Under the pieces are notes generated by a model, which saw nothing but the letters and a program-made list of their open reading frames with translations, had not been told where the DNA came from and did not search any database. A stretch of 64,000 bases of DNA from an uncultured Bryobacteraceae bacterium (lineage in GTDB: Bacteria; Acidobacteriota; Terriglobia; Bryobacterales; Bryobacteraceae). Below are positions 14,912 through 31,602 of the stretch, piece by piece. Position 1 is the stretch's first letter, and every line of letters starts with the position of its first letter. The DNA is taken from contig CALDSU010000007.1 of the NCBI GenBank assembly GCA_937924525.1, positions 248,001-312,000 of the forward strand, given 5' to 3'. The translations under genes were made by a program, and so were the position numbers.

Positions 14912-17900
14912 CTACTGCTTGCTTAACCTTCGGAAGTACTCGGCGATGGAGCGCGAGTACTCGGGCGGCACCGGCGGCGGCGACGTGGCGCGTACGCTGC
15001 CGCCACCCTTCTCATCGAGTTTGCGGCGCAGCATCAGCTCCAGGTTCTCCAGCCCGGCGAGGATCGAGCGGTCCAGCCGATTGACCAATTCGGGATTCCC
15101 GGGGAAGCGTTTGGGGTCCAGCCGCGCCATCTCCCTCAGCAAGTCCTGAATTTCCGCCGAGATTTCCGGCGTGTCGCCAAGCTGCTGCCGGAGCCGGGTC
15201 AAGTCGCGCATGGTGTCGCGATACACGCGCTCGGCGGTCTGCGCGTCGTAAGCTCCGCCGTCGCCGGCCAGGCGCTCGCCACGGTTCATGCCGCCCCAGC
15301 CGCCGGCCTCGGACCGCCCGCCCGGCTGGAAAGGGCCCGCCATTTGCTCCCCGCCCGTTTCGCCGCGGCGGCCGCCTGGACCCGGCAGGCCGGGCGGTCC
15401 TTGCTGCCCAGGCTGGTGGCCCTGGCCAGGCTCCTGGCCCGGCCGCTGGCCGGCTTGCGCTTGCTGCTGGCCGCGTTCCCCGGGCTGCCCACCCGGTTGG
15501 GGCTCCGGTTGGCCCGGTTGCCCCGGCTGCTGTCCGGGTTGGCGCTGGCTCTGCGGGCGCGATCCTTCGCGCTGGCCGGTCCTTGCGCCGAGGGACTTTG
15601 CCATCCGCTCCATCTGCTGCCGCAGAGATTCCGCTTGCCGCAGCGCCTCTTCCAGCCCCTGGTCGCCGGCCTTGCCTCGCTCGAGGGAATCGGCCGCCTC
15701 CTTGAGCCGCTCGCGCAGGTTGTCGAGGGCGTACGTCGTGGTCCCCTCGCGCATGGTGGCGTAAGCGCCATAGCCGCGGCGGATCGCCTCGGCGCTCCAG
15801 CGCATGTTCCGGGCCACTTCTTCCTGCTGGAGGTCGCCCAGCGCCTTGCGCAGCTTGTTCGCGGCCACCTTGTCCGCGCCAGCCAGCGCGCGCGCCGCCT
15901 CCTGGATTTCCTTCTCCAGCCGCTGGAGATCCTGGCTCATACCCTCCTTTTCGCGGGCTAGCTGCTCGTTCTTCTCGCGGTTCTTCCCACCGGCCTGGGG
16001 CGCGCCGCCTTGCGCGCCCGCCTGGCCGAACTCCTTCATCAGCCGTTCGCTGAAATCACGCTGCCGGCCCGCCAATCGCGCGGCTCGCTCGGAGAGCTGG
16101 CCCAACTGGTCGCCCGCTTCGCGTTTGCGCATGCCGGAGAGCACGTCCCGCGCCTCGCGGAGGCGGTCCGCGGCGCGGCGCGCCTCCGCTTCGCTCTGAG
16201 GCGTGCCGGCGCGCTGCGTGGACATCGCGTTCTGCATGTCGCGGGTCGCCTGCTGCAACTGCTCGAGCGCCCGCTGCAATTGTTGCTGGTTGGTCCGCCG
16301 CGGATCGGATTGATACTGGCGTTCCTCCCCGGCGCGGTCGGCGCTCTGCTGCTGCGATTGCTGCTGCGACGAGGACTGCGGCGAAGACGACTGCGGGGAG
16401 GAGGACGAGGCTTGGCTGTTGCTCCGCTGGGAAGACTGCTGCGGCGGGCTGGGCGTCCCGCGCGCCAACTGTTCCATTTGCCGCTTCAGTTCTTCCGCTT
16501 CGCGCCGCAGCAGTTCCTGCTGCCAGCGCTGTTGCGGCACGTGCTGGTTGCGCTGTTGCTGCTCGGCGAGCTCCTGCTGGCGGCGCGCGAGCTGTTCCAG
16601 CCGCGCGAGGGCTTCGTCGATCTCCTTCTGGCGCTGGTCGCCGCCGCTGGCCGACCGTTGCTCGGTCTCGTACTGGTTCTTGTCGGTGTCGAGTTCGAGG
16701 TCGAACAGACTTTCCAGCTCGCGGCCCAGGTTGCCACCCGCTCCGCCGCCGCCCCGGCTGTTGAAAGCCACCTGAATATCACGGAAGACGCTCTCCGCGC
16801 GGAGCAAGTGTTGGAGCGCCTTCTGGGCCGGAGGCAACGCGTCCTTCCAGGCCGTCGCCTTCAGCTTTTCGGCCGACGGCCCCATCGCCTCGACCGCGGC
16901 GTCCATTTCCTTGACGAAGGTCTTGATTTCCTGGTTGGCCCCGGCGAGGGCGCGGCTCCGCATGCGGTTGGACAGAGACTTGGCCTGGTCGCGCAGCTTG
17001 CCCTGGACATCGCTCAGAAAGGCGCCCGTACTCGGGTTGCCCGGTTTGCCGCCGCGAATCTCGTTCCACGCCGCGACGATGATCTCCTTCTGCCGCGTGG
17101 AGATCTGTTGCTGGTCGTCCTGTTCGCCGCCGCCCTGACCGCTCACCTGCGACTGGGAGAAGTTGCGCTCGAACGGCTGCGCCTCGGCGAAATAGATATC
17201 GGTTTGGGCCGAGGAATTCGCGTCCCGCGCCGTCGCGTACATGCTGACGATGTCGCCGGGCGCCAGGTGGAAGTCCTCCAGGGAAAGCAGCGTCCGGCCG
17301 GTGGCCTGCTTGCCGCCGCGGCCGGAAAGCAGCGAAACGGTTTTGGGTTCTCCGCCATTCACCGAGTAGACCAGCTTCAACTCCTGGAGTCCGAAGTCGT
17401 CCGCCGCTTCCACCACCACCGGGAGTTCTTCGATCGGGCTGACCTTGGCGTCGCGTCCGGGGCGGACCAGGCGCACCTGCGGGGCGCTGTCCTTCACCGC
17501 CTGAATGAAGTAGTCGTCGGTCAGGCGCACGTCCTCGTCGCGGTCCCGCGCGGCCACATAGTACACTCCGTCCTTCCGGATGGGGACATCGGCCTGGCCG
17601 CCGGAAAGGACCACGCGCTCTGTCCCGTCAATCAGCAGAAAGCCGTTTGCCAGAGGCCGGTCGGTTTCCACCTCCACTTGCGCAACGGTTCCTTCCACCG
17701 CGTGCAGGTCACCTCCGGGATCCTCGACCGTCTCCTGGAAGCCGGTCCAGGCGGGGTAGCGATAGGTGACTTTGATCTTGCGGACGGCGGGCAATTCGGT
17801 GACGGTAAGGCGGTAGGTCTCCGAACGCAGCGCGCCCGCGCTGACGTAGTAATCGAGCGTTTCCGGAATGCCCGAGAACAGGAATTCGAAACCCGGCGCG

Positions 17901-18619
17901 CCCGAGCGGGGCCGCATGGGCACATCCTCCCACTTCGACGCGCTGGCGTAGCGGACCGACAGCCGGACCGCGCCCGGCACAAAACCAAACGTCTGGGCGG
18001 TGATCAACTGGTCGGCGCGCTTGCGCACGGTGCGGCTGCCGGGTTCCACGCGCAGGCTGTAAAACGGCGCGGCTTCCTGGCGAGCCGGACCCGCCCACAG
18101 CAGGGAAGTGCCGTAACCCCAGAAGCCGGGGCCGGAAGCGCCCAGCCAGAGCAGCAAAGCCGCCGACCCGGCGCCGGCGGAGAGAAAGCCCAGCAGCTTG
18201 CCCGAGCCCGCGACTTCACGGGGCGCGGCGCGCGCGGCCGTTTGCAGCGCATCGGCGGCCAGTAAGTCTAAAAAGGCGTCCCGCGCGCCCGCTCCCCGCC
18301 GTTCGGCAAAGGTCAGCAGGCGCTCCTGGAATTCGGGAAATCTTTCCTCCGCCTCGCGAGCCGCGCGGCGGGCATTGAGCTTCAGCAGCGGCGTCAGCAG
18401 GCCAAACCCCACCGCAACCGCCAGCGCGATGTATAGTACCGTGCGGGAGAAGGTGAGGCTGAGAGAAGAGAACGCGAAGGCATTGGCCACCAGCACCAGG
18501 ACGACGGTGAGCAAAAGCGCACAGAGCGCCACCAGGGCGATGCCGCGCGCCCAGGCGGCGAGTTTCAGGCGGCCTTCCACTCGCTGCAAATAGTCCGACA
18601 ATTGATCATACGGATTCAT
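14912..18619 (-). CDS. Giant DUF4175-like membrane protein with Gln-rich and collagen-like segments
   Basis: 1235 residues, last gene of the MoxR operon. Three membrane segments lie in the N-terminal part (about 26-50, 60-80, 142-160), followed by periplasmic beta-domains (about 180-480). A long helical, Gln/Arg-rich coiled-coil half comes next, with low-complexity runs (SSSSPQSSSPQSSSQQQ; later repeated QPGQ and GPPGLPGPGG). The layout matches DUF4175-type proteins often found with MoxR/VWA genes; function is unknown. An SD of AAGGGGAA supports the ATG. It probably acts as an elongated envelope structural or substrate-engaging component. Confidence 0.72.
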   Translation of the reverse strand: MNPYDQLSDYLQRVEGRLKLAAWARGIALVALCALLLTVVLVLVANAFAFSSLSLTFSRTVLYIALAVAVGFGLLTPLLKLNARRAAREAEERFPEFQERLLTFAERRGAGARDAFLDLLAADALQTAARAAPREVAGSGKLLGFLSAGAGSAALLLWLGASGPGFWGYGTSLLWAGPARQEAAPFYSLRVEPGSRTVRKRADQLITAQTFGFVPGAVRLSVRYASASKWEDVPMRPRSGAPGFEFLFSGIPETLDYYVSAGALRSETYRLTVTELPAVRKIKVTYRYPAWTGFQETVEDPGGDLHAVEGTVAQVEVETDRPLANGFLLIDGTERVVLSGGQADVPIRKDGVYYVAARDRDEDVRLTDDYFIQAVKDSAPQVRLVRPGRDAKVSPIEELPVVVEAADDFGLQELKLVYSVNGGEPKTVSLLSGRGGKQATGRTLLSLEDFHLAPGDIVSMYATARDANSSAQTDIYFAEAQPFERNFSQSQVSGQGGGEQDDQQQISTRQKEIIVAAWNEIRGGKPGNPSTGAFLSDVQGKLRDQAKSLSNRMRSRALAGANQEIKTFVKEMDAAVEAMGPSAEKLKATAWKDALPPAQKALQHLLRAESVFRDIQVAFNSRGGGGAGGNLGRELESLFDLELDTDKNQYETEQRSASGGDQRQKEIDEALARLEQLARRQQELAEQQQRNQHVPQQRWQQELLRREAEELKRQMEQLARGTPSPPQQSSQRSNSQASSSSPQSSSPQSSSQQQSQQQSADRAGEERQYQSDPRRTNQQQLQRALEQLQQATRDMQNAMSTQRAGTPQSEAEARRAADRLREARDVLSGMRKREAGDQLGQLSERAARLAGRQRDFSERLMKEFGQAGAQGGAPQAGGKNREKNEQLAREKEGMSQDLQRLEKEIQEAARALAGADKVAANKLRKALGDLQQEEVARNMRWSAEAIRRGYGAYATMREGTTTYALDNLRERLKEAADSLERGKAGDQGLEEALRQAESLRQQMERMAKSLGARTGQREGSRPQSQRQPGQQPGQPGQPEPQPGGQPGERGQQQAQAGQRPGQEPGQGHQPGQQGPPGLPGPGGRRGETGGEQMAGPFQPGGRSEAGGWGGMNRGERLAGDGGAYDAQTAERVYRDTMRDLTRLRQQLGDTPEISAEIQDLLREMARLDPKRFPGNPELVNRLDRSILAGLENLELMLRRKLDEKGGGSVRATSPPPVPPEYSRSIAEYFRRLSKQ

Positions 18620-18634: not shown

Positions 18635-20647
18635 TTATGCCTTCATTCGCTGTTCCTGTACGGCGAGGTGGCGGTTGCCAACCCAGGCTTCCGCCAGCGA
18701 CAACAGAAAGGCCGCCAGCAGCGCATACCACCACAAAGAAACCCGGCGCGTCTGGGCGGCGGCGCCCACCGAAGCGCCCGCCGAATCCTGGCCGGTATTC
18801 CGCCACAGCGCCAGCGTCTCGGCGGGCAGCACGTCCAGATCCGACTCCTGCCGGTCCGGGTTCACCGCCACCAGTTCCTGGAAACCGCTCGGGCGCCGGA
18901 TTTCATAATAGCCGCGTTCAGCGAGCGTGATCCCGCGGACTTCGGCCGCTTCCGTGAGGCTGAGCGCCCGCTGGCCCCGCGGGTCCCGCACTTCGACCGC
19001 GGCGCCGGCTCCCGCGGCGGCGCGGATTTCGTAATAGGCGCCTACCTGCTGGCTCGCCCGGGACTCTTCCATGCGCGCCAGGTAGCGCGCGGTCTCGACC
19101 ACAAACGGCACAAACGACGGGTGCAGCGGAAAGTCGTTGGCGATATTGTCGAGCGGGGAGGCGAACACCAGCACCCGGCCCTCGCCGACCGGCCGTTCCA
19201 GCAGCAGCGGCGCCTCGTCGGAAAGCCGCGCCACCACCCGCGCGCCGTCCGGGTCCACCGCCACCGCCTGGAAGAACTTCACGCCTTCCCACCGGGGGGC
19301 GGAGCGCACCGCGGGGTGTGCGGTGTCCAGCGCCGCCACCGTGCGGAAGCGTTCGCCCTCGCGCGGCGAATAGCGGGACTCCCGCACCTGCTCCCCCGAA
19401 ACCGGCACCAGGTCGCGCGCCAAGGCCGTCCGGCCCAGCACGACCCACAGCGCGCCGCCGGCCTCGACGTATCGCCGCAGGTTCTCCTCCAGGCCCGCGG
19501 GCATGGCGCCCACGTCGGAGAGCACCACGCAGGCATAGGGTTTGAGCGGCAACGCCGCCGCTTGCGCCGCCGTCATCGCCTCCATGGCGAAGGCGGCGTC
19601 ACTGGCCGATTCGAGCGCGGTCCGGAAATACAATTGCGCGCGTGAGCCGCGTCCTTCGCTGACAAACAACACCTTGCGCGGTTCGGTGCGCTCCACCGCG
19701 AAGTACAGGACATCGTCGTCCGGAAAGGCGTCGGCCGGGCTGAGACGCGCCTCGGCGCGGTTCCAGCCGTAAGATGCCTCCAGCGCGAAGAACTCCACGC
19801 TGGCGCGCCCGTTGGCGGGCAGGTCGACTTCTTTGGACTCGATCTCCCGGCCGCCCGCCGCCAGCGTGACCCGGCGTCGCGCCGGCCCCGTCCCGTAGCC
19901 CGCCACGGTTACCTGCACCCGCACCTTCTTCGGGTCGTACAGCCGCGCGGGCGCCAGCACGCTCTCCACCGCGAAGTTCGCTTCCCGCTCTTCCACCACC
20001 GGATGAGGGATCAGGCGCACGCCGCCGCCCAACTGCGCGTCGGCGAAATTCGGCGGCCAGGATGACTTCTGCATATCGGAGAACACGTGCGCTTCCACCG
20101 GAACCTGGAGCGTCTGCGCCGTCGCGCGCAACGCCCGGGCCAGTTCCGCGAACGAACTGCGTTCGTCCGTCGCGCGCACGCCCTGGATCGCGGCCCGCAC
20201 CGCCGCTGGATCCGTCACCGGGTTCTGTTCCACCTGCACGCCGGCGCCGAAAGAAATCACCTCGACGCGGTCGCCGCCGGCGAAGCTGCGCGCCGCCTCC
20301 AGCGCCTGCTGCTTCGCCCGGTCCAGCCGTCCCCCCTGGCGCATGCTGAAGGAGTGATCAATGGCGATGACCTTGACCGCTTTGCCCGCCGCCCCCGCGC
20401 TTGCGCGCCGCTCGAAATACGGATGGGTGAACGCCAGCACCAGCAAGGCGAGCAGCAGCAGGCGCAGCGCGAACAGCAACAGGTATTTCAGCCGCCGGTG
20501 CTTCACCGAGCTTTGCAGCCGCCGCTCGAACAACATCAGCGAGGCAAACGGCACCGGAGTCGAACGGTGCTGTTGCAGCAAGTGCAGCCACACCGGCAGC
20601 CCCAGCGCCAACAGTCCCGCAAAAAAAGCCGGCGTGAGGAACCCCAT
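18635..20647 (-). CDS. BatA N-terminal domain / VWA domain membrane protein
   Basis: 670 residues. The N-terminus MGFLTPAFFAGLLALGLPVWLHLL is a classical BatA start, a second membrane helix follows (about 53-74), then a von Willebrand A domain with an intact MIDAS, D97-H-S99-F-S101. A beta-rich middle and a class-I amidotransferase-like fold region (about 330-480) precede a C-terminal membrane helix (SLWWYALLAAFLLSLAEAWV). Membrane VWA proteins of this type work with MoxR ATPases in metal-dependent protein assembly or envelope stress functions. The ATG comes one base after the DUF58 stop, and the stop is 15 bases before the next gene. Confidence 0.82.
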   Translation of the reverse strand: MGFLTPAFFAGLLALGLPVWLHLLQQHRSTPVPFASLMLFERRLQSSVKHRRLKYLLLFALRLLLLALLVLAFTHPYFERRASAGAAGKAVKVIAIDHSFSMRQGGRLDRAKQQALEAARSFAGGDRVEVISFGAGVQVEQNPVTDPAAVRAAIQGVRATDERSSFAELARALRATAQTLQVPVEAHVFSDMQKSSWPPNFADAQLGGGVRLIPHPVVEEREANFAVESVLAPARLYDPKKVRVQVTVAGYGTGPARRRVTLAAGGREIESKEVDLPANGRASVEFFALEASYGWNRAEARLSPADAFPDDDVLYFAVERTEPRKVLFVSEGRGSRAQLYFRTALESASDAAFAMEAMTAAQAAALPLKPYACVVLSDVGAMPAGLEENLRRYVEAGGALWVVLGRTALARDLVPVSGEQVRESRYSPREGERFRTVAALDTAHPAVRSAPRWEGVKFFQAVAVDPDGARVVARLSDEAPLLLERPVGEGRVLVFASPLDNIANDFPLHPSFVPFVVETARYLARMEESRASQQVGAYYEIRAAAGAGAAVEVRDPRGQRALSLTEAAEVRGITLAERGYYEIRRPSGFQELVAVNPDRQESDLDVLPAETLALWRNTGQDSAGASVGAAAQTRRVSLWWYALLAAFLLSLAEAWVGNRHLAVQEQRMKA

Positions 20648-20648
20648 G

Positions 20649-21542
20649 TTACATCTGCCCCTGGCGGACGGACAGGTATTCGCGCAACCCCGCGTCCAGC
20701 GGCCGTCCGGTGCTCATCAGGAAATAATCCAGGCCCACGCCCCGGGCCTTCTCGCTGAGCGCCGCCAGGTGGGCGCTGATCTTGGAGGGATACTCGCTGC
20801 GCGCGTACTCCGGCGTCACCTCCAGCGCGGAGTCGTTTTCCATGTCCACCAGCAGCACGGGCTCGCGGAAGTCGGGCTCCAGTTCCCGCGGGTCGAGGAG
20901 GTGAAACAGAATCACCTCGTTGCCGTGGAAGCGGAGCGGCGCGATCGTCTTGACCAGCTCGTCCGGCGGCGCGTAGAAATCGCTCAACACCGCCACGATG
21001 CCCCGCCGCCGGATGAACTGCTGAAAGTGGTGGAAGGGCCGCAAGTAGTCCGTCCGGCTGGCGGGTCCGGGCTCGGCGCGCTCCAGGGCATGCAGCAGCC
21101 GCGGCAATTGGCCCTGCCGCCCCGAGGGGGCCACGTACTGCGTCACCGCTTCGTCAAAAACGATCAGCCCCGCCGCGTCGCGCTGCTGGCTGGCCAGATA
21201 GCACAACGACGCCGCCAGGTAGCGCGCGTAATCCAGCTTGGACACGCGGTGGGAGGCGTACGCCATGGACCGGCTGGCGTCCAGCAGCACCATCACGTGC
21301 GTATTCGTCTCCCCGTGGTAGCGCTTCAGGTAGCAGCGTTCCGTGCGCGCGAACACGTTCCAGTCCACATGGCGCAGGTCGTCGCCCGGCACGTAGGCGC
21401 GATACTCGGCGAACTCCTGGCTGAAGCCAAAGTCCGGGGAACGGTGCAGCCCCGCGATGAAGCCGTCGACGACGGTCTTCGCCACCAGGTCGATGCCGGA
21501 AATCGACGCCAGCGTGGCGGGATCCAGGAAGCGCTGCAACAT
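20649..21542 (-). CDS. DUF58 domain protein (VWA-like)
   Basis: 297 residues with the DUF58 hallmark FAEYRAYVPGDDLRHVDWNV and a VWA-type metal site DASRSM. The remainder is a VWA fold with VLSDFYAP. DUF58 genes almost always follow moxR, as here, six bases downstream. It is probably cytoplasmic or membrane-peripheral and is thought to act as an adaptor for the MoxR ATPase. The C-terminus mentions nothing catalytic. Confidence 0.87.
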   Translation of the reverse strand: MLQRFLDPATLASISGIDLVAKTVVDGFIAGLHRSPDFGFSQEFAEYRAYVPGDDLRHVDWNVFARTERCYLKRYHGETNTHVMVLLDASRSMAYASHRVSKLDYARYLAASLCYLASQQRDAAGLIVFDEAVTQYVAPSGRQGQLPRLLHALERAEPGPASRTDYLRPFHHFQQFIRRRGIVAVLSDFYAPPDELVKTIAPLRFHGNEVILFHLLDPRELEPDFREPVLLVDMENDSALEVTPEYARSEYPSKISAHLAALSEKARGVGLDYFLMSTGRPLDAGLREYLSVRQGQM

Positions 21543-21548
21543 AAACCG

Positions 21549-22568
<1,020 letters not shown>

Positions 22569-22569
22569 G

Positions 22570-24687
22570 TTACTTTTTGTCCGATTCTCCTCGCGATAAT
22601 TCGAGCAGCATTTTTTGGGCCGGCCGGTAACCCGGCGCGGCCTCCAGCGCGGAAATCAGCGCGTCCTTGGCGGCTCCCGCCTGGCCGGCCGCCCGCAGCG
22701 CCTGGGCCAACTGAAAATGCGCGCCGGCCACGTCCTGCGGTTGCATCGCGAGCAGGGCCCGGAACTCGCGCACCGCGTCCTGAGGGCGCCCGGTGCGCAG
22801 GTACAAGCTGCCCAGCCGCTGATGCAACTCCTCGTCATGGGGATAAATCAGGTTCAGGCGGGCCAGCGCCGCCGCGGCTTCCTGCGGACGTCCGGCCTCC
22901 TCCAGCAGCCTGGCCAGTTGTTTGAGCGTATCCGGACGCCGCCCGCCCGCGCGCGCGTACCGGCTGAGCTCCTCGATCGCCTTCTCCTTTTCCCCTTTCG
23001 CCTGGTAGGCCTCGGCGAGGAACTCGTACACGCTGCCGGCCTCCACATATTCCCGATACAGGTCGCGGATGGCGACGCCTTCGCGGATCACCTCGTCGTG
23101 TTTGCCGGCCCGGGCCAGTTCCGCGAGGGTCTTCACCTTGCCGCGCCACTCGTCGAACCGCTCCAGCAGAGGCTTCAGTTCCTGTTCCAGCGAGACGAGG
23201 AACTCCTTGTCGAACTCCGCCGCCGGCATTCCCAAATGTTTTTCGAAGACTTCCGGGGTGGATGCGCCCTCGCCGAAGCCATGCATCATCTCGAGCAGCT
23301 TGCCGAATCCCCATTTGCGGTTGATGTAATCGCAGATGCGGCCCGCCTGGAAATACGAAACCACCACCTGGTGGGGATACGAAGGGCGGATAAAGCCGCG
23401 GTCGAGTTCGGCCACCGGCAGCAGTTTCTTCTGTTTGACAGCGGCCAGCGTGTGCGGGTCCAGCCGGTCGCCCCATTCGGGCGAGACCGCGGTTTCCTCG
23501 TGCACCGCCAGCCCCTCGGTGAACCAGCGGGGCACCTTATGCCTGGTCGCGGCAAGCACGAACACGTGGCTCATCTCGTGCCAGAGCGTGCTAGCCCAAT
23601 GGAACGTCCCGGGCTTACGGCCGGAAGGCGAATCCATGGCCACCACGTGGCCGAAGGTCACGCCCAGCGCGCCCAGTCCCGGCATGCCCATCGTCCGGAC
23701 GGCGAAATCTTCGTGATCGGGGTACACCTCGATCTGGACGGGCCGTTCCAGTTTGACCCGGTACTTCTTCTCGAACGTGCGAATCGACCGGTCGAGTTCG
23801 GCCTGAAAATACGGGCGCAGCAGTTCGGCTTCCTTCTTGTGGAGGCGGAGCGCCGTGGCGGGCGTGCGAAACGTGACGAACCGGGCGTAGCTGTCCATCA
23901 GGGTCAGCGTGTTCTTTACCGCGGTGCTGGTGTAGCCATTCGCCCAGCACTGTTCCAGGTGCGCGCGGGCTTCCTTTTCTTCGCCCAGCCGCATCAGGTT
24001 GATGCCCAACTGCGCCCGGGCGCTCCACAGGTCCGGTTTGAGCGCCAGAGCCTGGCGGTAGAGTGCGATCCCTTCCTCGTAGCGCCGGTTGAGCACAAAG
24101 AAGTTCCCGGCCGTTTCGAACGCCTCCCCGTACTTTGGGTTTCGGGAGAGGACGCGCCGGATCCACGGGTTGTCCTGGGTGACGCCCGGGCCCTTCGGAT
24201 CCAGCCAATCGATGGTCGCCCGGATCGCCATGGCCTGCCAGGCATCCGGAGACATGCTCAACGCCTTTTCGCACTGCGCAACCGCTTCGGTGATATCGTT
24301 CGTTTCCAGCGCCAGGCGCGCGAGCAGTTCCTGAGCCGGCAGGAGTTTCGGATCCGCCCGCAGCGCCCTCTCGGCCAGTTCCACGGCCTTGCTGTCAAAA
24401 CGGCTGGCCGCGACCTCCGCCAAGCCGAGCAGCGCCCCGGCGTGATCCTTCTGCAGCGCCAGCGCCTCCTCGAACAACTGGGCGGCATCGGCGGGCTGGA
24501 AGCGTTCCAGATACAGCCGTCCCCACGCGACTCGGTAATCCGGATTCTTGGGGTGCTGTTTGACCAGGGCGCGGAAGGCGTCGTTGGCTTCCGCGTAACG
24601 TCCCGCTTTCCACAGGCTGAGGGCGCGCTGATCGGGCTGCGCCGCCAGCGGCAGCGTCACCACCATCGCCCAGAGGAGCCGCCTCAT
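22570..24687 (-). CDS. Secreted TPR protein with embedded zinc metallopeptidase domain (HExxH)
   Basis: 705 residues: a short signal peptide (RRLLWAMVVTLPLAAQ), N-terminal TPR repeats (about 18-250), a peptidase-MA-like domain and further TPRs (about 520-690). The metallopeptidase site is H370-E-M-S-H374 in TLWHEMSH with a third ligand candidate E391 in FTEGLAVHEE, the gluzincin pattern. It would act in the periplasm. The ATG overlaps the stop of the caspase-fold gene as ATGA, and moxR follows one base after its stop. Proteins with this domain order are found in Acidobacteria-like genomes without assigned substrates. Confidence 0.8.
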   Translation of the reverse strand: MRRLLWAMVVTLPLAAQPDQRALSLWKAGRYAEANDAFRALVKQHPKNPDYRVAWGRLYLERFQPADAAQLFEEALALQKDHAGALLGLAEVAASRFDSKAVELAERALRADPKLLPAQELLARLALETNDITEAVAQCEKALSMSPDAWQAMAIRATIDWLDPKGPGVTQDNPWIRRVLSRNPKYGEAFETAGNFFVLNRRYEEGIALYRQALALKPDLWSARAQLGINLMRLGEEKEARAHLEQCWANGYTSTAVKNTLTLMDSYARFVTFRTPATALRLHKKEAELLRPYFQAELDRSIRTFEKKYRVKLERPVQIEVYPDHEDFAVRTMGMPGLGALGVTFGHVVAMDSPSGRKPGTFHWASTLWHEMSHVFVLAATRHKVPRWFTEGLAVHEETAVSPEWGDRLDPHTLAAVKQKKLLPVAELDRGFIRPSYPHQVVVSYFQAGRICDYINRKWGFGKLLEMMHGFGEGASTPEVFEKHLGMPAAEFDKEFLVSLEQELKPLLERFDEWRGKVKTLAELARAGKHDEVIREGVAIRDLYREYVEAGSVYEFLAEAYQAKGEKEKAIEELSRYARAGGRRPDTLKQLARLLEEAGRPQEAAAALARLNLIYPHDEELHQRLGSLYLRTGRPQDAVREFRALLAMQPQDVAGAHFQLAQALRAAGQAGAAKDALISALEAAPGYRPAQKMLLELSRGESDKK

Positions 24688-25607
24688 TGATCCAACTCCT
24701 CCTGCGTCTTGGCCAGCTCCAAGAGAAGCGCGCTTAACTTGCGCCGGTATTCTTCGGTGGGCATGGCGGCTTTCTGATACTTCAGCCGGTCGACCTCCTG
24801 TTCAAGCTGCTCCTTGCGCGCAAACAGCTTTCGCTTGGCCGGATCATTGGCGGCCACCGCCGCATCGCCCAGCCTCACCACCGGGAACGCGGCCGCCACC
24901 AGGCCGTAGCCATTCTCCGGCGAAGGAGCGCGCACCCCCTCCCCCTTGCCCCGATCGTCCAGGACAGCGTGTTCGGTGGCGATCCGCTTCTGCGACTCAT
25001 AAAAGCGGGCGGTCTTCGCTTCGGCGTACCGGAACGCCTCCAGCGCCGAAACCGCACCATTCTTGTCCGTATCCGCCGCGGCATCCCGCAACGCTTCGAT
25101 CCAGTAGCGCGCGAAGACGGTGGCGTTCTTCTCAAACCCGCTGCGCGTGGCGGCGATTACGATGCGGCCGGGTTTGGCCAGGGCCTTCAGCCCGCCGCCG
25201 CTGGCGCTGGTCATGGCGACCACCAGCTGCCGCTGCGCGGGCACCTGATCGGCCAGCGCGGCCAGGTCCGCCGCGGTCAGGTCCGGTCCCGGCAGATTGA
25301 ACTTATAGTCGTCGCCGTCGAACGTCCCGTGCCCGATCAGCATCACCACCAGCGTGTCGTCCGCCGCCGCCTCGCCCGCCAGGCGCGAGAATAGCTGCTT
25401 CACGTTTTGCCGGGTAGCCTGCGCCCCTTTGAGGACCTCGCTGCGCACGTCCGGAGCGAACTTTAGGATCTTCTCCACATCCGCCGCCCAGCCGGTAAAG
25501 CGCTGTTCGTAGTCCGGCTCGCCGCCCAGCCCCGCGATCGTGACATAGTGGGTGGCGGCGCTCAGCGGCGTCAGGCACAGGAGGCCCGCCAGCAGCCGCG
25601 CCTTCAT
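24684..25607 (-). CDS. Caspase-fold (C13/C14-like) protein lacking the catalytic cysteine, with an EF-hand loop
   Basis: 307 residues from the ATG that overlaps the upstream VWA gene stop (ATGA). A signal peptide (LLAGLLCLTPLSAA) precedes a caspase/legumain-like fold: VVMLIGHGTFDG carries the histidine (H93), but where active members have D-x-C-x-S-G the sequence reads TSASGG (133-138), so the nucleophile is absent. A canonical calcium loop DTDKNGAVSALE (179-190) follows, and the C-terminus is a charged coiled coil (about 255-305). A binding or regulatory pseudo-protease in the periplasm is the simplest reading. Longer upstream starts exist but would lie deep in the preceding gene. Confidence 0.7.
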   Translation of the reverse strand: MKARLLAGLLCLTPLSAATHYVTIAGLGGEPDYEQRFTGWAADVEKILKFAPDVRSEVLKGAQATRQNVKQLFSRLAGEAAADDTLVVMLIGHGTFDGDDYKFNLPGPDLTAADLAALADQVPAQRQLVVAMTSASGGGLKALAKPGRIVIAATRSGFEKNATVFARYWIEALRDAAADTDKNGAVSALEAFRYAEAKTARFYESQKRIATEHAVLDDRGKGEGVRAPSPENGYGLVAAAFPVVRLGDAAVAANDPAKRKLFARKEQLEQEVDRLKYQKAAMPTEEYRRKLSALLLELAKTQEELDQ

Positions 25608-27853
25608 ATCACACCCCATTTCCGCCGCAACAGCCACTCGGTGGCGCGCAGGCCGGCCAGCAGGAGGAATACCGCCGGCATGTCCCAGAGATCCCGTGCT
25701 TCCCGCGCCGTGATGCCCGCCTCGGAGTACGAAATCTGCTCCGGCAGTTTTTTCGCCGCGGCGGGCGTCCAATAGCGGCCGCCGGTCTGTTCGGCGAGTT
25801 TCTCCAGCAGTTCGCGGTTTTGCGCCAGGCGAAAATGTTCGGCGACCCCTTCCTCCCGGCGGAACTGCACGGTGTCGCGGCCGACCTCCTCCTCGTTGCG
25901 GCGGGCGATCACCTCGGCGACATACGCGCCCGGCTTCAACGCCGGCCAGGAGGCGGCATACACCCCCTCTTCATGAGGCGAAGGCGTCAATTCCACGGTC
26001 TCCGCCAGCCCTTCGGGACCGACGATCCGCGCCTCCACGCGCGCGTCCGCCATGGGCTGGTATTCCTTGTTCCGCACCTCGGCCCGCAGCGGCACGCGAG
26101 TTTCGTCCGACAGCACGGTTTTCGGCATGGAGGCCGACACCAAGCCGGGCGTTTCCGAGACCAGCCAGCGCGCCAACTGCCGCCAGAACATTTCGTGGGT
26201 CTGGTCTCCCGCGTCTTGCGACATCTGCCAGCGCCAGGAACCGCCCGTGGCGAACACCGCCGTCCGCCCGCGCCCGTAGGGTTGGATGACCAGCAACGGC
26301 GACTTCCGCCGTCCCGGCACACTCAAGAGCAGCAGGGGCGCCGCTCCCGGTTTCACTTCTCCCACTTCCTGATAGTCGGCCAGCAGCGGCATCTTGCGCC
26401 AGCGCTCGGCGTTGGCCGCGGGGTCGTCCACCAGCCGACAGATCAGGCTGTCGAGGCCCTGGGGGGTCAGTTCGAATCCCGCCGGGTCGCGATGGAACGT
26501 GTTCTTCCGGTCCTCGACGCGCACCGGGAGCATCTCGGCCAGTTCCGACTGGGCGTAGCCGCCGTCGCCGAGCGTCGCGCGTCCGCCGAGAAACAGGACG
26601 CCGCCGCCGCGCCGGTTGGCGAACTCCCGGATCAGCGTCTGCTGTTCCCGGGTGAAATAACTGGCTTCGCTATTGCCGATGATCAGCGCGGCGTATCCGA
26701 ATAACTCCTCCGCCCGGGCAGGGAATCCGTCCTCGAGTTCGGCGGCGTTGGCGATGCCCTGCCGATAGAACTTGTTCTGGGTGGTCCGCAGGATGGTCGT
26801 CAGTTGCAGGCTGGAGTCCTCGCCCAGCGCGCGGCGGATGAACTTAAACTCCCAGCGCGGCTCGCCTTCAAACCAGAGAATGCGCGGCTTGGCCGCCTCC
26901 ACCTGCAACACGCGCGCCACGGCGTTGTTCTTGGCGTTTACTTCGCCGGGCAGGGGTTCGAGCGTGAATTGCAGCGTCCTGACGCCCGCCGAGCCTGCGG
27001 TCAGGGTTACCGTCTGCGCGAGCGGCGCGTCCTGCTGGCGGAAGACCACGGGCACGGACGCCACCACGCGGCCGGCATCCCGCACCGTCAACTGGCTCTT
27101 GCCCCCGGTGAGCCCGTGCTGGCGAATCGTGACCTGCGCGGTGAGGCGCGATTCGGCCAGGGTGCGGACCGGAATCACGGCGTCGACGATTTCGGCGTCC
27201 GGGGAAATCACCTCCCGCCCAAAGCCCACCGGATGCACCGGGACCCGCCGCTGGCGCAACTGCTGGATGGTTTCGCGATCAATGCCGCCGGTATTGTCGG
27301 CGCCGTCCGTCAGCACGATCATCGCGCCCAAAGGCAGGGTGGCCGTATCGGCCAGCACTCCTTGCAGCGCTTCGCCGATCCGCGTAGCTGGCTGCGCGCC
27401 GGCCACGCCCAGGAGGTCGTCGATCCGTTCCGCCGCGGCGCCGAACCGGTACAACCGCACCTGGAACCGCTCGCGCAGCCGGTCCAGCATGCCGCTCTGC
27501 AACACCCCCCGCGCCTGGTCCAGCCGCGTGGTGTTTCCCTCCTGCATCGCCATGCTTCCGGAATCGTCGATGAGCACGGCGACGACATTCTGCTGCGGGC
27601 GCAACGTCGCCACGCTGAGCGCGGGATGCCAGAGCAGGAACAGCAACATCGCCGCCATCAGCGTCTGCAAAAGCCAGATCACCGCGGGCCGGCGTCCCGT
27701 CAGCCGCTTGGGACTGCGCCGCAGAAGCCACGCCAGCGCCACGCCCGCCGCCACCACGCCCAGCCCCAGCAGCCAGACCGGCCACCCGCCCAGGAGCACA
27801 AACTGGCCCCGGGAAAAGACGCTGGCCGGATACTTGAATAAAAACTCGAACAT
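25604..27853 (-). CDS. Membrane VWA protein with class-I amidotransferase-like domain
   Basis: 749 residues. Two N-terminal membrane helices (about 21-44 and 57-75), then a VWA domain with MIDAS D96-D-S98-G-S100 and GAMIVLTDGADNTGG, a beta region, and a GATase1-like domain (ILWFEGEPRWEFKFIRRAL through LLLSVPGRRKSPLLVIQPYGRGRTAVF). The conserved amidotransferase Cys is not apparent. The C-terminus ends with a membrane-like LWDMPAVFLLLAGL and a basic tail. The architecture parallels the BatA-type gene downstream. It begins 38 bases after the DUF4159 gene. Confidence 0.8.
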   Translation of the reverse strand: MFEFLFKYPASVFSRGQFVLLGGWPVWLLGLGVVAAGVALAWLLRRSPKRLTGRRPAVIWLLQTLMAAMLLFLLWHPALSVATLRPQQNVVAVLIDDSGSMAMQEGNTTRLDQARGVLQSGMLDRLRERFQVRLYRFGAAAERIDDLLGVAGAQPATRIGEALQGVLADTATLPLGAMIVLTDGADNTGGIDRETIQQLRQRRVPVHPVGFGREVISPDAEIVDAVIPVRTLAESRLTAQVTIRQHGLTGGKSQLTVRDAGRVVASVPVVFRQQDAPLAQTVTLTAGSAGVRTLQFTLEPLPGEVNAKNNAVARVLQVEAAKPRILWFEGEPRWEFKFIRRALGEDSSLQLTTILRTTQNKFYRQGIANAAELEDGFPARAEELFGYAALIIGNSEASYFTREQQTLIREFANRRGGGVLFLGGRATLGDGGYAQSELAEMLPVRVEDRKNTFHRDPAGFELTPQGLDSLICRLVDDPAANAERWRKMPLLADYQEVGEVKPGAAPLLLLSVPGRRKSPLLVIQPYGRGRTAVFATGGSWRWQMSQDAGDQTHEMFWRQLARWLVSETPGLVSASMPKTVLSDETRVPLRAEVRNKEYQPMADARVEARIVGPEGLAETVELTPSPHEEGVYAASWPALKPGAYVAEVIARRNEEEVGRDTVQFRREEGVAEHFRLAQNRELLEKLAEQTGGRYWTPAAAKKLPEQISYSEAGITAREARDLWDMPAVFLLLAGLRATEWLLRRKWGVI

Positions 27854-27891: not shown

Positions 27892-28683
27892 CTAGTGCGT
27901 CATGGAATAAATGATGTAATTAATCGCCATCCGGTAGGCTTGCGAGGCGTATTTCTCCGGGTAGGTCGGATCGTCTGCCCACTCCCAGGCGTCTCCGTTG
28001 TCCTGGTTAAAACAAATCCCCATCATCACCCGGCCTTGGTCGTCATACACGCCGCGCCAATGGGGCTCCACGCCATCCTTTTCGTACGTCCGAAAATAGG
28101 GGCGGTTTACAATGCCAGGCACCTGCATCATATCGTCGAGGTCCCAGAGCACGTGAAAAATGGGGTCGCTGCGCTCGATTTCCACCACCGGGCGGTCCGG
28201 AAACACCCGGCTGAGGCTCGCCATGAAGACTTCCCATTCATCGCTCCCGTGAAAATCGTCCGCCATCAGGAAGCCGCCACGCAGCAGATACTCTCTCAGT
28301 TTCTTGCACTGGGCGTCCGTCAAAGTCCAGTGCCCGGGCTCGACGACGTAGACCCACGGGTAATCAAAGATCTTGTCGTCGTCCAGCGAAACCACTTCCT
28401 CCACCGAGCGGGCGTGAATGCGGGTCAGTCGCCGCAGTCCCTGGAGGAACTGGCGGTCGGCCTTGGGATAATCGATGGTCCAATAGCCGGCGTAGCCCCA
28501 GAACCGACCCGAGGGATAGCGGAGGCGGGCAAATACGAACTCCGTCTTTTCGCCCGCGTCGGCGGGCATGGGCGCGTCGTCTTCGTCGGAGAAGAAGCGA
28601 AAGCCTCCCCGCTGGGCGTACGCCGCGCCAACGATGCAAAGCAACGCTGCGCTCGCCGCAATACCCGCGCGGATGGCGTTCAT
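27892..28683 (-). CDS. DUF4159 domain protein, exported
   Basis: 263 residues with a signal peptide (IAASAALLCIVGAAYAQ) and a DUF4159 domain: FVFARLRYPSGRFWGY, DYPWVYVVEPGHWTLTD, LREYLLRGGFLMADDFHG and the late RMAINYIIYSMTH. DUF4159 resembles an inactive amidotransferase-type fold and is repeatedly found beside MoxR/BatA genes; its function is unknown. It is the first gene of the eight-gene unit. AAGGAAG precedes the ATG, and a TATGCT that could be a -10 lies about 20 bases further upstream. Confidence 0.83.
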   Translation of the reverse strand: MNAIRAGIAASAALLCIVGAAYAQRGGFRFFSDEDDAPMPADAGEKTEFVFARLRYPSGRFWGYAGYWTIDYPKADRQFLQGLRRLTRIHARSVEEVVSLDDDKIFDYPWVYVVEPGHWTLTDAQCKKLREYLLRGGFLMADDFHGSDEWEVFMASLSRVFPDRPVVEIERSDPIFHVLWDLDDMMQVPGIVNRPYFRTYEKDGVEPHWRGVYDDQGRVMMGICFNQDNGDAWEWADDPTYPEKYASQAYRMAINYIIYSMTH

Positions 28684-28765: not shown

Positions 28766-31165
28766 CTATTCTTTCAGCTCCGCAATCGTCGCTCCCGCCC
28801 CGCCTTCCTGGGGCGAGGCTTCATAGAAGCGCGCGACGTGCGGATGCGCCCGTAGCAGGTCGGCAATGGCCCGTTTCAACACCCCCATGCCATGGCCGTG
28901 CACGATGCGCACCCGGCTGGCGGTGGCCATCACCGCCGCGTCCAGGAAGCGGTCGACCTCCTCGCAGGCTTCGTCGGCGTGCTTGCCGATCACGTTGATC
29001 TCCTGGTGCAAGGGGCGCAGTTCCGGCGCGGGTTGAAACCGCACGTTGCGGGGCAGGCGGGGCGCTTCGCTTTCCGCGGGAAGCACTTCCAGGACCTCGT
29101 CCGCCGAGACCTGCATGCGGAGAAACCCGGCCTCGACTTCAATCTTGCCCCCGGACAGTTTGCGGCGCACCCGGGCGATGTCCCGGAGTCCTTTCAGCCG
29201 CACGCGCGCGCCCTCTTCCATGCGGGGCGCCGGAACGGGAATCCCCGCCGCGTTCGCCAGCACAGCGGCCTGGAACTCCTCCCGCAACTCCCGCCGCACG
29301 CGCGCGGTCTGGCGCTGGGCCTGGCTGGCCGCCTTGCGCGTCTCCGCCGATTCCCGGATCCTCTCAAGCGTCGAGTGCGCATCGTTTTCGAACCGGGCCA
29401 GCACCTGTTCCATGCGTTTTTCCAATTCGCGGATTTTCGCGGATTCCTTCTCTTCCCACTCCTGCTTCAACGCGCGCTCACGCTCGATCAGTTCCTGCTG
29501 ACGCCGGCGAAGGTCCGCTTCCAGCGCCGCCACCGATGCCAGGCGCGCGTGCAAATCGGCGAGGAAACGCGCCAGGTCCTGCTCGCGCGTCGACATCGCC
29601 CGCCGCGCCCGCTCCATCAGCGCCGCCGGCATGCCGAGGCGCGTCGCCACATCGAGCCCCGCCGACTTGCCCGGCACGCCCACCGCCAGCCGGTAGGTCG
29701 GCTCGAACGTATCCTCGTCAAAACCCATGGACGCATTGACTACGCCGGGCGTGTTGGCGCCGTACAACTTGAGCGGCAGCAGGTGCGTGGAGGCCAGGGT
29801 GAATGCGCCGGCCTCCCGGAAATGATCCACCACCGCGACGCCGAGCGCCCCGCCCTCTTCCGGATCCGTCGCCGCGCCCAACTCGTCCAGCAGCACCAGC
29901 GCCACGGGCGCCGCGGCGAGCACCATGTCGCGTATGTGCGAGATGTGCGCCGAGAAGGTGCTCAGGCTTTCCTGGATCGACTGGTTATCGCCGATGTCGG
30001 CCAGCACCTGGTCGAAGACCGGGAATTCCGCTTCCGCGGCCGGCGCCGGAATCCCGGCGTGCGCCATCAGCGCCAGCAGCCCCACGGTCTTCAGCGTCAC
30101 GGTCTTGCCGCCGGTGTTGGGACCGCTGATGACCAGCGTGCGGCGTTCCGCATCCAGTTCGAGCGAAAACGGGACCACGGCTTTCCGTTTCCGGCGAAGG
30201 ACATCCTCGAGCAGTGGGTGCCGCGCCTCGCGCAGGCGCAACCGGGGAGCGCCGGGCGGGCTGAAGACCGGCCGCGCACAGTCGAACTCCACCGCGAAGC
30301 GGCCCTTGGCGAAGACGACCTCCAGGTCCGCCAGCGTGTCCAGAGTACGCCGGATCGGCTCGGCGTAGCGGCGCAGCCGCTCGCTCATCTCCCGGGCGAT
30401 CCGGTGGCATTCCCGTGCTTCCTCTTCCGTCAGCCGCACCAGGTCATTGTTCAGGCCGATGGTCTCCAGCGGCTCGACAAACAGAGTATGGCCGCTCGAA
30501 CTGGCGCCATGAATCACGCCGTCGATGCGCTTGCGCTGCCCGGAGATCACCGGCACTACGAAGCGGTCGTTCCGGATGGTGACCAGTTGGTCCTGCAACA
30601 CCCCCTCTTCGCCGTGCTGCTTCAGGAAGCGTTCGAGGGAGTCCTGGATGGCCTTCTTCTGTTTTTCGATCTCGCGGCGGAGGCGGGACAGCGCGACGCT
30701 TGCGTGATCGGCCAGCCTGCCGCCGGGCAGAATCTTGCCTCCCAGGTCTTGGAGCACCGGCCGGAAATCGCCGATTTCCTCGGCGCGCCGGCCCAGGCGC
30801 GGGAATCTGGCGGCGGCCGCGCTCAGGCTGATCCGGATGGACCCTGCCCGGTCCAGGACCGCCAGAACCTCGAAGATCTCCAGCGGGTCCAGCACCGCGC
30901 CCTCCATGCGCAGCTTGTGGCAGGAGGCCGTGATTTCGGGCAGGTCGCGGAAATCCACCCGCGGGAGGCCCGCGCCCGGCTGCCCCGCGGCGCGCAGATA
31001 ACCCGCGGCTTCCTCCGCTTCGGCCAGTTCGCGTTCCGCCCGGTCCCGTTCGCCGTGGGGCGTCAGCCCCTCCAGCCGCGCGTGACCCATGGGACTGGCT
31101 ACGTAACGGCGGAGCAAATCGACGAGCAGGTCGAACTCCAGGATCTCGGCGCTGGTCTTCAGCAT
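28766..31165 (-). CDS. mutS2: MutS2 family DNA-binding ATPase/endonuclease
   Basis: 799 residues, normal length for the family. MutS core and clamp helices precede the ATPase: Walker A SGPNTGGKTVTLKT, SIQESLSTFSAHI, Walker B VLLDELGAATDPEEGGAL and ASTHLLPLK. A KOW-like region (about 640-700) and a C-terminal Smr domain follow, with HGHGMGVLKRAI. The Smr start reads INVIGKHADEA where many have LDLRG, so nuclease activity is not certain. Known MutS2 proteins suppress homologous recombination or rescue collided ribosomes. The start overlaps the NUDIX stop by seven bases. Confidence 0.93.
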   Translation of the reverse strand: MLKTSAEILEFDLLVDLLRRYVASPMGHARLEGLTPHGERDRAERELAEAEEAAGYLRAAGQPGAGLPRVDFRDLPEITASCHKLRMEGAVLDPLEIFEVLAVLDRAGSIRISLSAAAARFPRLGRRAEEIGDFRPVLQDLGGKILPGGRLADHASVALSRLRREIEKQKKAIQDSLERFLKQHGEEGVLQDQLVTIRNDRFVVPVISGQRKRIDGVIHGASSSGHTLFVEPLETIGLNNDLVRLTEEEARECHRIAREMSERLRRYAEPIRRTLDTLADLEVVFAKGRFAVEFDCARPVFSPPGAPRLRLREARHPLLEDVLRRKRKAVVPFSLELDAERRTLVISGPNTGGKTVTLKTVGLLALMAHAGIPAPAAEAEFPVFDQVLADIGDNQSIQESLSTFSAHISHIRDMVLAAAPVALVLLDELGAATDPEEGGALGVAVVDHFREAGAFTLASTHLLPLKLYGANTPGVVNASMGFDEDTFEPTYRLAVGVPGKSAGLDVATRLGMPAALMERARRAMSTREQDLARFLADLHARLASVAALEADLRRRQQELIERERALKQEWEEKESAKIRELEKRMEQVLARFENDAHSTLERIRESAETRKAASQAQRQTARVRRELREEFQAAVLANAAGIPVPAPRMEEGARVRLKGLRDIARVRRKLSGGKIEVEAGFLRMQVSADEVLEVLPAESEAPRLPRNVRFQPAPELRPLHQEINVIGKHADEACEEVDRFLDAAVMATASRVRIVHGHGMGVLKRAIADLLRAHPHVARFYEASPQEGGAGATIAELKE

Positions 31166-31602
31166 GGGCCCTCCGCGCGGGGCGGTACGGGTGGAGGTTC
31201 CGCGCCCTGAAGCATGCGATATGCCCGCTCGATCACCGGCGTGGTGCCCTCCGTGATCGAAAACTCGCCCAGCCGGGCCAGCGGAATCCAGGCGACCCGG
31301 CTCGCATCGTCCTGCGCCGCCAGATGGCCGCCGGTCACCCGGCAGACGTAGTCGACCAGCACATAGTGATATTCCGGGCGGCCGCCGGCGTCGCGCAAAA
31401 TCCGCTCGAAGATCTCGGCGATAAACTCGGGCTCGATGTGGAGACCCGTCTCCTCGGCAACCTCCCGGCGGACCGCCGCCGCCAGCGTCTCCCCGGCCTC
31501 CACCACGCCGCCGGGCAGCGACCAGTAACCTTTCAAAGGCTCGCGTCCGCGTTCCACCAACAGCACTTCACTGCCGGAAAACAGGATCGCGCCCACCCCC
31601 AA
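31159..31602 (-). CDS. NUDIX hydrolase
   Basis: About 147 residues with a complete Nudix box: GGVVEAGETLAAAVRREVAE followed by ETGL, which binds the catalytic metal for hydrolysis of nucleoside diphosphates linked to another group. The substrate is unknown. The start is uncertain: a TTG gives this length, and a GTG six bases downstream would begin VGAILF, the usual first strand. It overlaps mutS2 and follows the SMP-30 gene by 31 bases. Confidence 0.88.
   Translation of the reverse strand: MGVGAILFSGSEVLLVERGREPLKGYWSLPGGVVEAGETLAAAVRREVAEETGLHIEPEFIAEIFERILRDAGGRPEYHYVLVDYVCRVTGGHLAAQDDASRVAWIPLARLGEFSITEGTTPVIERAYRMLQGAEPPPVPPRAEGPC

Follow-up and report, generated by a model that had tools for sequence, protein, structure and literature searches.

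The window analysed here is a stretch of 64,000 nucleotides from an uncultured Bryobacteraceae bacterium of the phylum Acidobacteriota (assembly GCA_937924525.1, contig CALDSU010000007.1, positions 248,001 to 312,000 of the forward strand). On its minus strand we identified a gene for a protein of 307 amino acids, here called CASP, which has the predicted fold of legumain and the caspases and lies between two partner genes, VWA_GAT upstream and TPR_MA downstream. A sequence-only reading of the window had described this protein as a caspase-fold, periplasmic pseudo-protease that keeps the catalytic histidine, lacks the catalytic cysteine, and carries a canonical EF-hand loop followed by a coiled coil. 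The gene starts with an ATG at 25607 and its stop codon ends at 24684. Its features are as follows.

24684..25607, minus strand: CASP, gene of a putative legumain/caspase-fold pseudo-peptidase, 307 amino acids (open reading frame; AlphaFold2 model and fold search; matches in near genomes)
25557..25607, minus strand: signal-peptide-like N-terminus, residues 1-17, MKARLLAGLLCLTPLSA (read from the sequence)
25329..25331, minus strand: codon of H93, the caspase/legumain catalytic histidine (202/202 distinct family members)
25197..25208, minus strand: S134-A135-S136-G137, in place of Cys-x-Ser-Gly, with the nucleophile place at 134 or 135 (alignments)
25038..25073, minus strand: EF-hand-type loop DTDKNGAVSALE, residues 179-190 (pattern in 169/180 representatives; AlphaFold2)
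24690..24842, minus strand: C-terminal helical hairpin, residues 256-306 (AlphaFold2 helices 239-264 and 267-289 in mature-chain numbering)

The two motifs of the putative active site, IGHGTFDG and TSASGG, occupy residues 91-98 and 133-138, respectively, and the codons of S134 and A135 are at 25208-25206 and 25205-25203. The intact motif is Cys-x-Ser-Gly-Gly; CASP has Ser134 followed by Ala135, with Cys at neither place, and the sole cysteine in its translation is residue 11, within the signal-like N-terminus. Because no Cys follows residue 11, a cysteine-peptidase mechanism is impossible for mature CASP under any alignment, and the reported lack of the catalytic Cys, with TSASGG in its place, is confirmed. 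The orthologues that we inspected have a hydrophobic N-terminus at the position matching that of CASP, and the protein is probably exported, in agreement with the extracytoplasmic location proposed earlier. In an alignment of CASP with 23 orthologues (31-66% identity), 27 columns are invariant; in the C-terminal part, where the coiled coil of the sequence-only reading is predicted to be a helical hairpin (approximately residues 256-306), the columns of L275, Y287 and A299 are conserved.

Predicted fold and kinship to C13 peptidases

The AlphaFold2 model of mature CASP, for which the protein was aligned with 54 relatives of 55-68% identity, has a mean predicted local distance difference test score (pLDDT) of 88.8 and a predicted template modelling score (pTM) of 0.79. 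The best Foldseek match of this model among solved structures is legumain (4n6o, E 6.6e-8). VIA-align ranked prolegumain first (4nol, Z 20.8, root mean square deviation (rmsd) 5.7 over 232); superposition of mature legumain on model residues 1-228 gave Z 19.9 and an rmsd of 2.2 Å over 190 residues; the next matches, among those listed, are plant legumains, metacaspases, PIG-K of the glycosylphosphatidylinositol (GPI) transamidase, MALT1 and caspases. The model is thus confident, legumain is its best fold match, and structure prediction gave no fold other than the caspase/legumain fold that had been proposed. Rows for ACE2 and a glycosyltransferase in the structural alignments were taken as chance.

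In Pfam searches, PF01650 (Peptidase C13) did not match CASP up to E 1, and Peptidase_C14 (PF00656) scored 19.2 bits, under its cut-off of 21.4. Peptidase_C13 matches 11/24 family members at E ≤ 0.1, the best at 1.8e-8; the family member L240 exceeds the PF01650 cut-off (31.5 vs 22.8 bits), and L166 is instead over the C25 cut-off (23.8 vs 23). Of 199 genomes of the phylum, six have a PF01650 match, four of them over the cut-off, and three of the six (G192, G219, G255) are matches to the CASP family; therefore, Pfam alone misses most of the family. Profile comparison recovered the kinship. The acidobacterial proteins L232, L233 and L236, which have an intact catalytic site, exceed the PF01650 cut-off, and a profile built from these three retrieves the CASP gene at E 1.1e-12. 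The hhalign probability between the CASP family and intact acidobacterial C13 proteins was 99.0 (E 9.4e-18); against seven intact C13 cousins it was 99.3 (E 4.2e-20).

CASP is a relative of the C13 peptidases and not itself a C13 peptidase: of the catalytic pair required of C13, His93 is present and Cys is absent from the mature protein. With the C13 family (legumain, GPI8/PIG-K and bacterial members), CASP shares the predicted fold, profile kinship to intact acidobacterial proteins, an EF-type loop, the catalytic His and the Ser-Gly that follows the nucleophile; it differs from them in lacking a Cys in the mature protein and a match to PF01650. In two of the intact C13 cousins, L254 and L255, a large insertion separates the catalytic core from the EF-type loop.

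The histidine, the nucleophile place and the calcium-type loop

CASP matches were found in 54/61 near genomes, including the window's own, and in 140/396 genomes of an even sample of the phylum at E ≤ 0.001, weak matches included. Furthermore, the best 80 of at least 543 relatives on named genome contigs were taken, the nearest of which are from Bryobacteraceae and other Acidobacteria. In total, 242 frames in 239 loci match the family model; 10 frames under 150 bits were dropped, and the remaining 232 correspond to 202 distinct sequences and to 180 representatives at 90% identity. The 232 loci include some places that were fetched twice and comprise part of the strong places of the phylum sample. 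As the 80 best loci had been found with patterns, one of which contains GHG, the conservation of the histidine was recounted without them.

His93 of IGHGTFDG, which the sequence-only reading had noted as kept, is present in 202/202 distinct members and in 134/134 of the subset that comes from whole-genome searches independent of the GHG pattern; Ser134 is present in 118/134 of this subset. Conserved among the 202 distinct members are also the oxyanion-type Gly94 and the columns N104, G107 and D109. At position 134, we counted Ser 186, Ala 4, Asn 3, Glu 3, Gly 3, Thr 2, Pro 1 and Cys 0, and at position 135, Ala 113, Ser 61, Cys 18, Gly 6, Val 2 and Thr 2. Hence, TSASGG is not fixed as a string, and the expectation that orthologues lack Cys in this motif holds at 134 and fails at 135 (0/202 and 18/202, respectively). 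Where 134 is A, N, E, G or P (14 members), His93 is always retained, together with the first Asp and the last Glu of the loop; two of these 14 carry Cys135. His93 may have a binding or structural role, because it is kept where neither 134 nor 135 offers a nucleophile (e.g. L029, with Ala-Ala).

The aligners disagree on which of the two residues stands in the nucleophile place of CASP. Matching Ser136-Gly137 to the Ser-Gly of DxCxSG without a gap puts the Cys on 134; matching the preceding strand instead puts it on 135, with one family residue missing. When six intact caspase-like proteins were aligned jointly with the family in MAFFT, the Cys fell on 134 in 6/6, as it did with the E-INS-i and auto settings, with 5/6 for G-INS-i; when the proteins were added one at a time, four fell on 134 and two on 135. 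Cys139 of metacaspase-4 falls on 134, and the Cys of GSU0716 aligns with 135 and is followed by a one-residue insertion. The full-family hhalign runs against the intact cousins (both sets) put the Cys opposite 135, with a one-residue deletion, and eight subset runs divided evenly, four favouring each place. With hmmalign, 4/6 intact cousins have their Cys on 134, and L232 and L237 have it on 135. The AlphaFold2 model, in which a strand ends at 133 and a helix starts at 136, is compatible with either place. Ser134 as the sole nucleophile place was given up, the alignment evidence being divided between 134 and 135.

If the nucleophile place is 135, the family could be a mixed one, in which the Cys135 members (the TSCSGG type, comprising most members with the family code f34 and scattered others) are active, C13-like enzymes and most others, including the window's Ala135 CASP, are dead. 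We regard this as a tentative possibility. The full-family hhalign runs and half of the eight subset runs would fit it, and so would the resemblance between the motifs of the intact cousins L256 (NMQQCNSGG) and L257 (DMQQCNSGG) and the NMTSCSGG of CASP family members. Cys135, found in 18/202 distinct members, is concentrated in f34, where 6/7 representatives have it, with Ser, Thr or Asn at 134; of two further f34 places, L278 has Cys135 and L270 does not. In addition, three (L167, L170, L211) of the six representatives that lack Ser134 and are followed by TPR_MA have Cys135. Against a mixed family stands the ungapped Ser136-Gly137 register, which puts the Cys on 134 in the joint MAFFT alignment, with metacaspase-4 and in the other four subset hhalign runs. 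Moreover, Cys135 is scattered outside f34, with at least 11 changes on the tree. The tree was built with FastTree, leaving out residues 132-138, and the counts are the fewest changes, with gain not separated from loss. Cys135 in f34 may be a working nucleophile, and the loss of the catalytic Cys is usual in the CASP family, though perhaps not universal. The f34 proteins L166, L167, L170, L175, L179 and L211 are the best candidates for active members.

Alternatively, Ser134 and His93 could form a working Ser-His dyad, which would make the family phylum-wide legumain/caspase-fold serine hydrolases (esterase, amidase or transacylase). The near-constancy of Ser134 (186/202), one of the two possible nucleophile places, the invariance of the His and the conservation of Gly94 and the pocket columns speak for such a dyad. 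Nevertheless, we consider it quite improbable: position 134 is A, N, E, G or P in 14/202 members (5/141 representatives among those followed by TPR_MA), with at least nine changes on the tree, and the His stays invariant throughout; the nucleophile place may also be 135, where Ala is found in 113/202. In addition, PMC6426788 presumes that caspase homologues in which Ser replaces Cys are inactive. If the dyad did work, CASP would be a serine hydrolase of the envelope that operates with a VWA protein and a gluzincin in a machine driven by MoxR.

The loop at residues 179-190 is not a chance pattern, occurring in 7/100000 shuffles of CASP. A relaxed form of the pattern (D-x-[DN]-x-[DNS]-x-x-[ILV]-[STDN]-x-x-E, with a helix after it) is met in 169/180 representatives, and Asp at loop position 1 and Glu at position 12 are found in 178/180 and 179/180, respectively. 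The earlier description of the loop as canonical holds for CASP itself and less so for the family: the canonical Gly at position 6 is present in CASP but only in 60/180 representatives, Glu being the commonest residue (83/180). In the AlphaFold2 model, this segment is a loop with a short strand at positions 7-9, followed by a helix, and it may bind Ca2+. A comparable EF-type loop is present in 7/7 intact C13 cousins examined (two of them near-identical) and in 5/6 caspase-like proteins of the joint MAFFT alignment. The loop is therefore inherited, and not a special acquisition, and the calcium responsiveness named by the sequence-only reading is a conjecture. At three places (G101:C33, G312:C7, which is L230, and G336:C29), the match to the family is split into two blocks at approximately 175-179, just before the calcium loop, in an insertion-like manner.

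The operon and its partner genes

CASP is one of a series of genes on the minus strand of the window.

14912..18619, minus strand: DUF4175-like large membrane protein, operon member (weak match, 25.2 bits, cut-off 27.3)
18635..20647, minus strand: membrane protein with BatA N-terminal and VWA domains, operon member (BatA E 7e-15, VWA_2 E 5.2e-13)
20649..21542, minus strand: DUF58 protein, operon member (E 4.3e-42)
21549..22568, minus strand: MoxR-type AAA+ ATPase, operon member (AAA_3 E 3.9e-61)
22570..24687, minus strand: TPR_MA, downstream partner, a TPR protein with a Peptidase_MA domain and a HEMSH motif (Pfam)
25604..27853, minus strand: VWA_GAT, upstream partner, a membrane protein with a VWA domain (DDSGS) and a GATase1-like region (Pfam)
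27892..28683, minus strand: DUF4159 protein with a signal-peptide-like N-terminus, operon member (E 9.4e-46)

The Pfam matches bear out the position assigned to CASP by the sequence-only reading, with a VWA gene upstream and a metallopeptidase (TPR/Peptidase_MA) gene downstream. CASP overlaps each of the two by four nucleotides (ATGA), which is the usual arrangement of translationally coupled genes. By the coordinates of BLAST matches, the nearest recognised upstream gene is VWA_GAT in 223/232 loci, and the nearest recognised downstream gene is TPR_MA in 193/232; a further 25/232 loci have no recognised downstream neighbour, a count in which contig ends and diverged genes are pooled. The commonest long order, found in 43 loci, is DUF4159, VWA_GAT, CASP, TPR_MA, MoxR, DUF58, Bat-type VWA and DUF4175-like. 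In a second arrangement (DUF4175-like, VWA_GAT, CASP), represented by 18 representatives, Ser134 is present in 9/18 and the Gly after Ser136 is mostly Phe. Loci with this second type of CASP copy include L212, L215, L216, L222-L226, L239 and others.

The partnership also holds at the level of genomes. Among 34 chosen genomes, both partners have strong matches (VWA_GAT at E 1e-142 or better, TPR_MA at E 1e-87 or better) in 11/11 genomes with CASP and in 0/22 without it, 16 of these 22 having been picked from the phylum sample because the gene is absent; weak partial VWA_GAT matches occur in three of the 22 (G002, 7.8e-6; G041, 1.1e-9; G060, 2.8e-4). The exception is G016, a genome that is 62% complete, in which the VWA_GAT match is truncated on one contig and the TPR_MA match starts at base 1 of another, as would be expected if the assembly had a gap at CASP. 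In another phylum, a plasmid of Gemmatirosa kalamazoonensis carries these genes in the same order; there, the motif, judged by eye, is SSAS and the loop DLDKDGGVSLLE. This locus (L250) is at 738169-756870 of NZ_CP007129.1, a 1.1 Mb Gemmatimonadota plasmid, and the first part of its CASP is in a different frame from the rest, which could be a sequencing error or a frameshift. Among TPR_MA relatives, HExxH and the Glu that follows it are kept in 167/183, so that the metallopeptidase looks active.

With MoxR, VWA and an inactive caspase fold side by side, the operon might be a ternary MoxR-vWA system (Kaur et al. 2020) that acts in defence or conflict, its effector being the inactive caspase. Inactive caspase domains do occur in such systems, and approximately 70% of the caspase domains in effector position are inactive there (PMC7159879). 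The MoxR protein of the window also matches bpMoxR, at 37.1 bits with a cut-off of 27. However, its AAA_3 match is far stronger (205 bits), and PADLOC, run on seven proteins, gave nothing beyond a weak match of the ATPase to mad8. The conflict systems described in PMC7159879 resemble the operon in bringing MoxR, VWA and often inactive caspase-like domains into one gene set, and differ from it in their third component and in their fusions: CASP is a separate, unfused, apparently exported protein that is associated with a TPR-gluzincin in a gene order that is stable across the phylum sample. In the listed Pfam matches of nine window proteins, VMAP, iSTAND, FtsH and beta-propeller components were not seen, a comparison in which the component models were not searched one by one. 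Taken together, we find a conflict module very improbable.

Proposed role and relation to known systems

The reading that we favour, and hold to be reasonably probable, is that CASP is a Ca2+-stabilised pseudo-peptidase that serves as a recognition or scaffold subunit of an envelope MoxR/VWA-metallopeptidase unit, a function that we infer. Under this proposal, CASP would not cut; its former substrate cleft would bind a peptide or protein segment, and the Ca2+ that it holds would stiffen the domain. As a recognition or scaffold subunit in the envelope, CASP would link VWA_GAT to the TPR_MA metallopeptidase, and the MoxR ATPase, located in the cytoplasm, would engage the VWA side and remodel the assembly, as in the MoxR/VWA couple NorQ/NorD (PMC9976466). 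The mixed-family explanation is compatible with this role for the window's own CASP.

Several points weigh against the pseudo-peptidase proposal. Ser134 in 186/202 members, together with the conserved Gly94, N104, G107 and D109, makes Ser catalysis conceivable, and with Cys135 in 18 members, part of the family may still be active. Further, 15/183 TPR_MA frames are without HExxH, and a crude scan did not find DxSxS in 65/214 VWA_GAT relatives, so that by these scans neither partner is intact throughout. The binding partner, the Ca2+ binding and the cellular place of CASP are, moreover, all inferred.

Compared with plain Bat-type MoxR-DUF58-VWA operons, with which it shares the MoxR, DUF58 and BatA-type VWA genes, the window operon has DUF4159, VWA_GAT, CASP and TPR_MA in addition. 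A further comparison is with the pseudo-orthocaspases (PMC6426788): 858/9,994 orthocaspases lack part of the dyad, and 90% of these are from Alphaproteobacteria or Cyanobacteria. In inactive prokaryotic caspase homologues, Cys is most often replaced with Ser (PMC3501461). CASP resembles them in being a prokaryotic protein of caspase-clan fold with a substituted dyad, in which Cys is often replaced with Ser. In contrast, Tyr and Ser replace His and Cys in the pseudo-orthocaspases, whereas the His of the CASP family is invariant, the hosts of CASP are Acidobacteriota, and its nearest solved fold is the C13 legumain. Neither 'acidobacteria' nor 'legumain' appears in the main text of PMC6426788.

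Literature searches found no paper on the C13-fold CASP family or its operon, and the envelope MoxR/VWA-metallopeptidase unit with CASP is apparently undescribed. Inactive prokaryotic caspases are already known; what is unusual in CASP is that a Cys-less version is conserved in a fixed gene partnership. In this light, the sequence-only reading was confirmed in its observation and partly supported in its interpretation, and its word 'unusual' was too strong, given the prokaryotic pseudo-caspases (PMC6426788, PMC3501461) and the EF-hand motifs in seven archaeal caspase homologues (PMC6426788).

Pseudo-proteases with an organising or regulatory role towards partners are already known. CASP provides a testable case of how a protease fold could turn into a non-cutting part of an envelope machine, and perhaps one in which active and dead versions exist side by side in one family. 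It represents a legumain-fold family, mostly without the Cys, that is kept over the sampled acidobacterial phylum and occurs on one plasmid of the Gemmatimonadota, almost invariably in the company of its two partner genes; in a minority of relatives, a Cys is still present beside the nucleophile place. CASP is also an entry point to a MoxR/VWA operon on which literature searches showed no study.

Three other loci of the same genome, G000:C2:427460-428098, C13:37237-37938 and C4:372221-372922 (L247-L249), are over the Peptidase_C14 cut-off. In the window itself, the plus-strand frames at 16010-18265 (751 amino acids) and 28892-31210 (772 amino acids), opposite the operon, look like high-G+C coding shadows.

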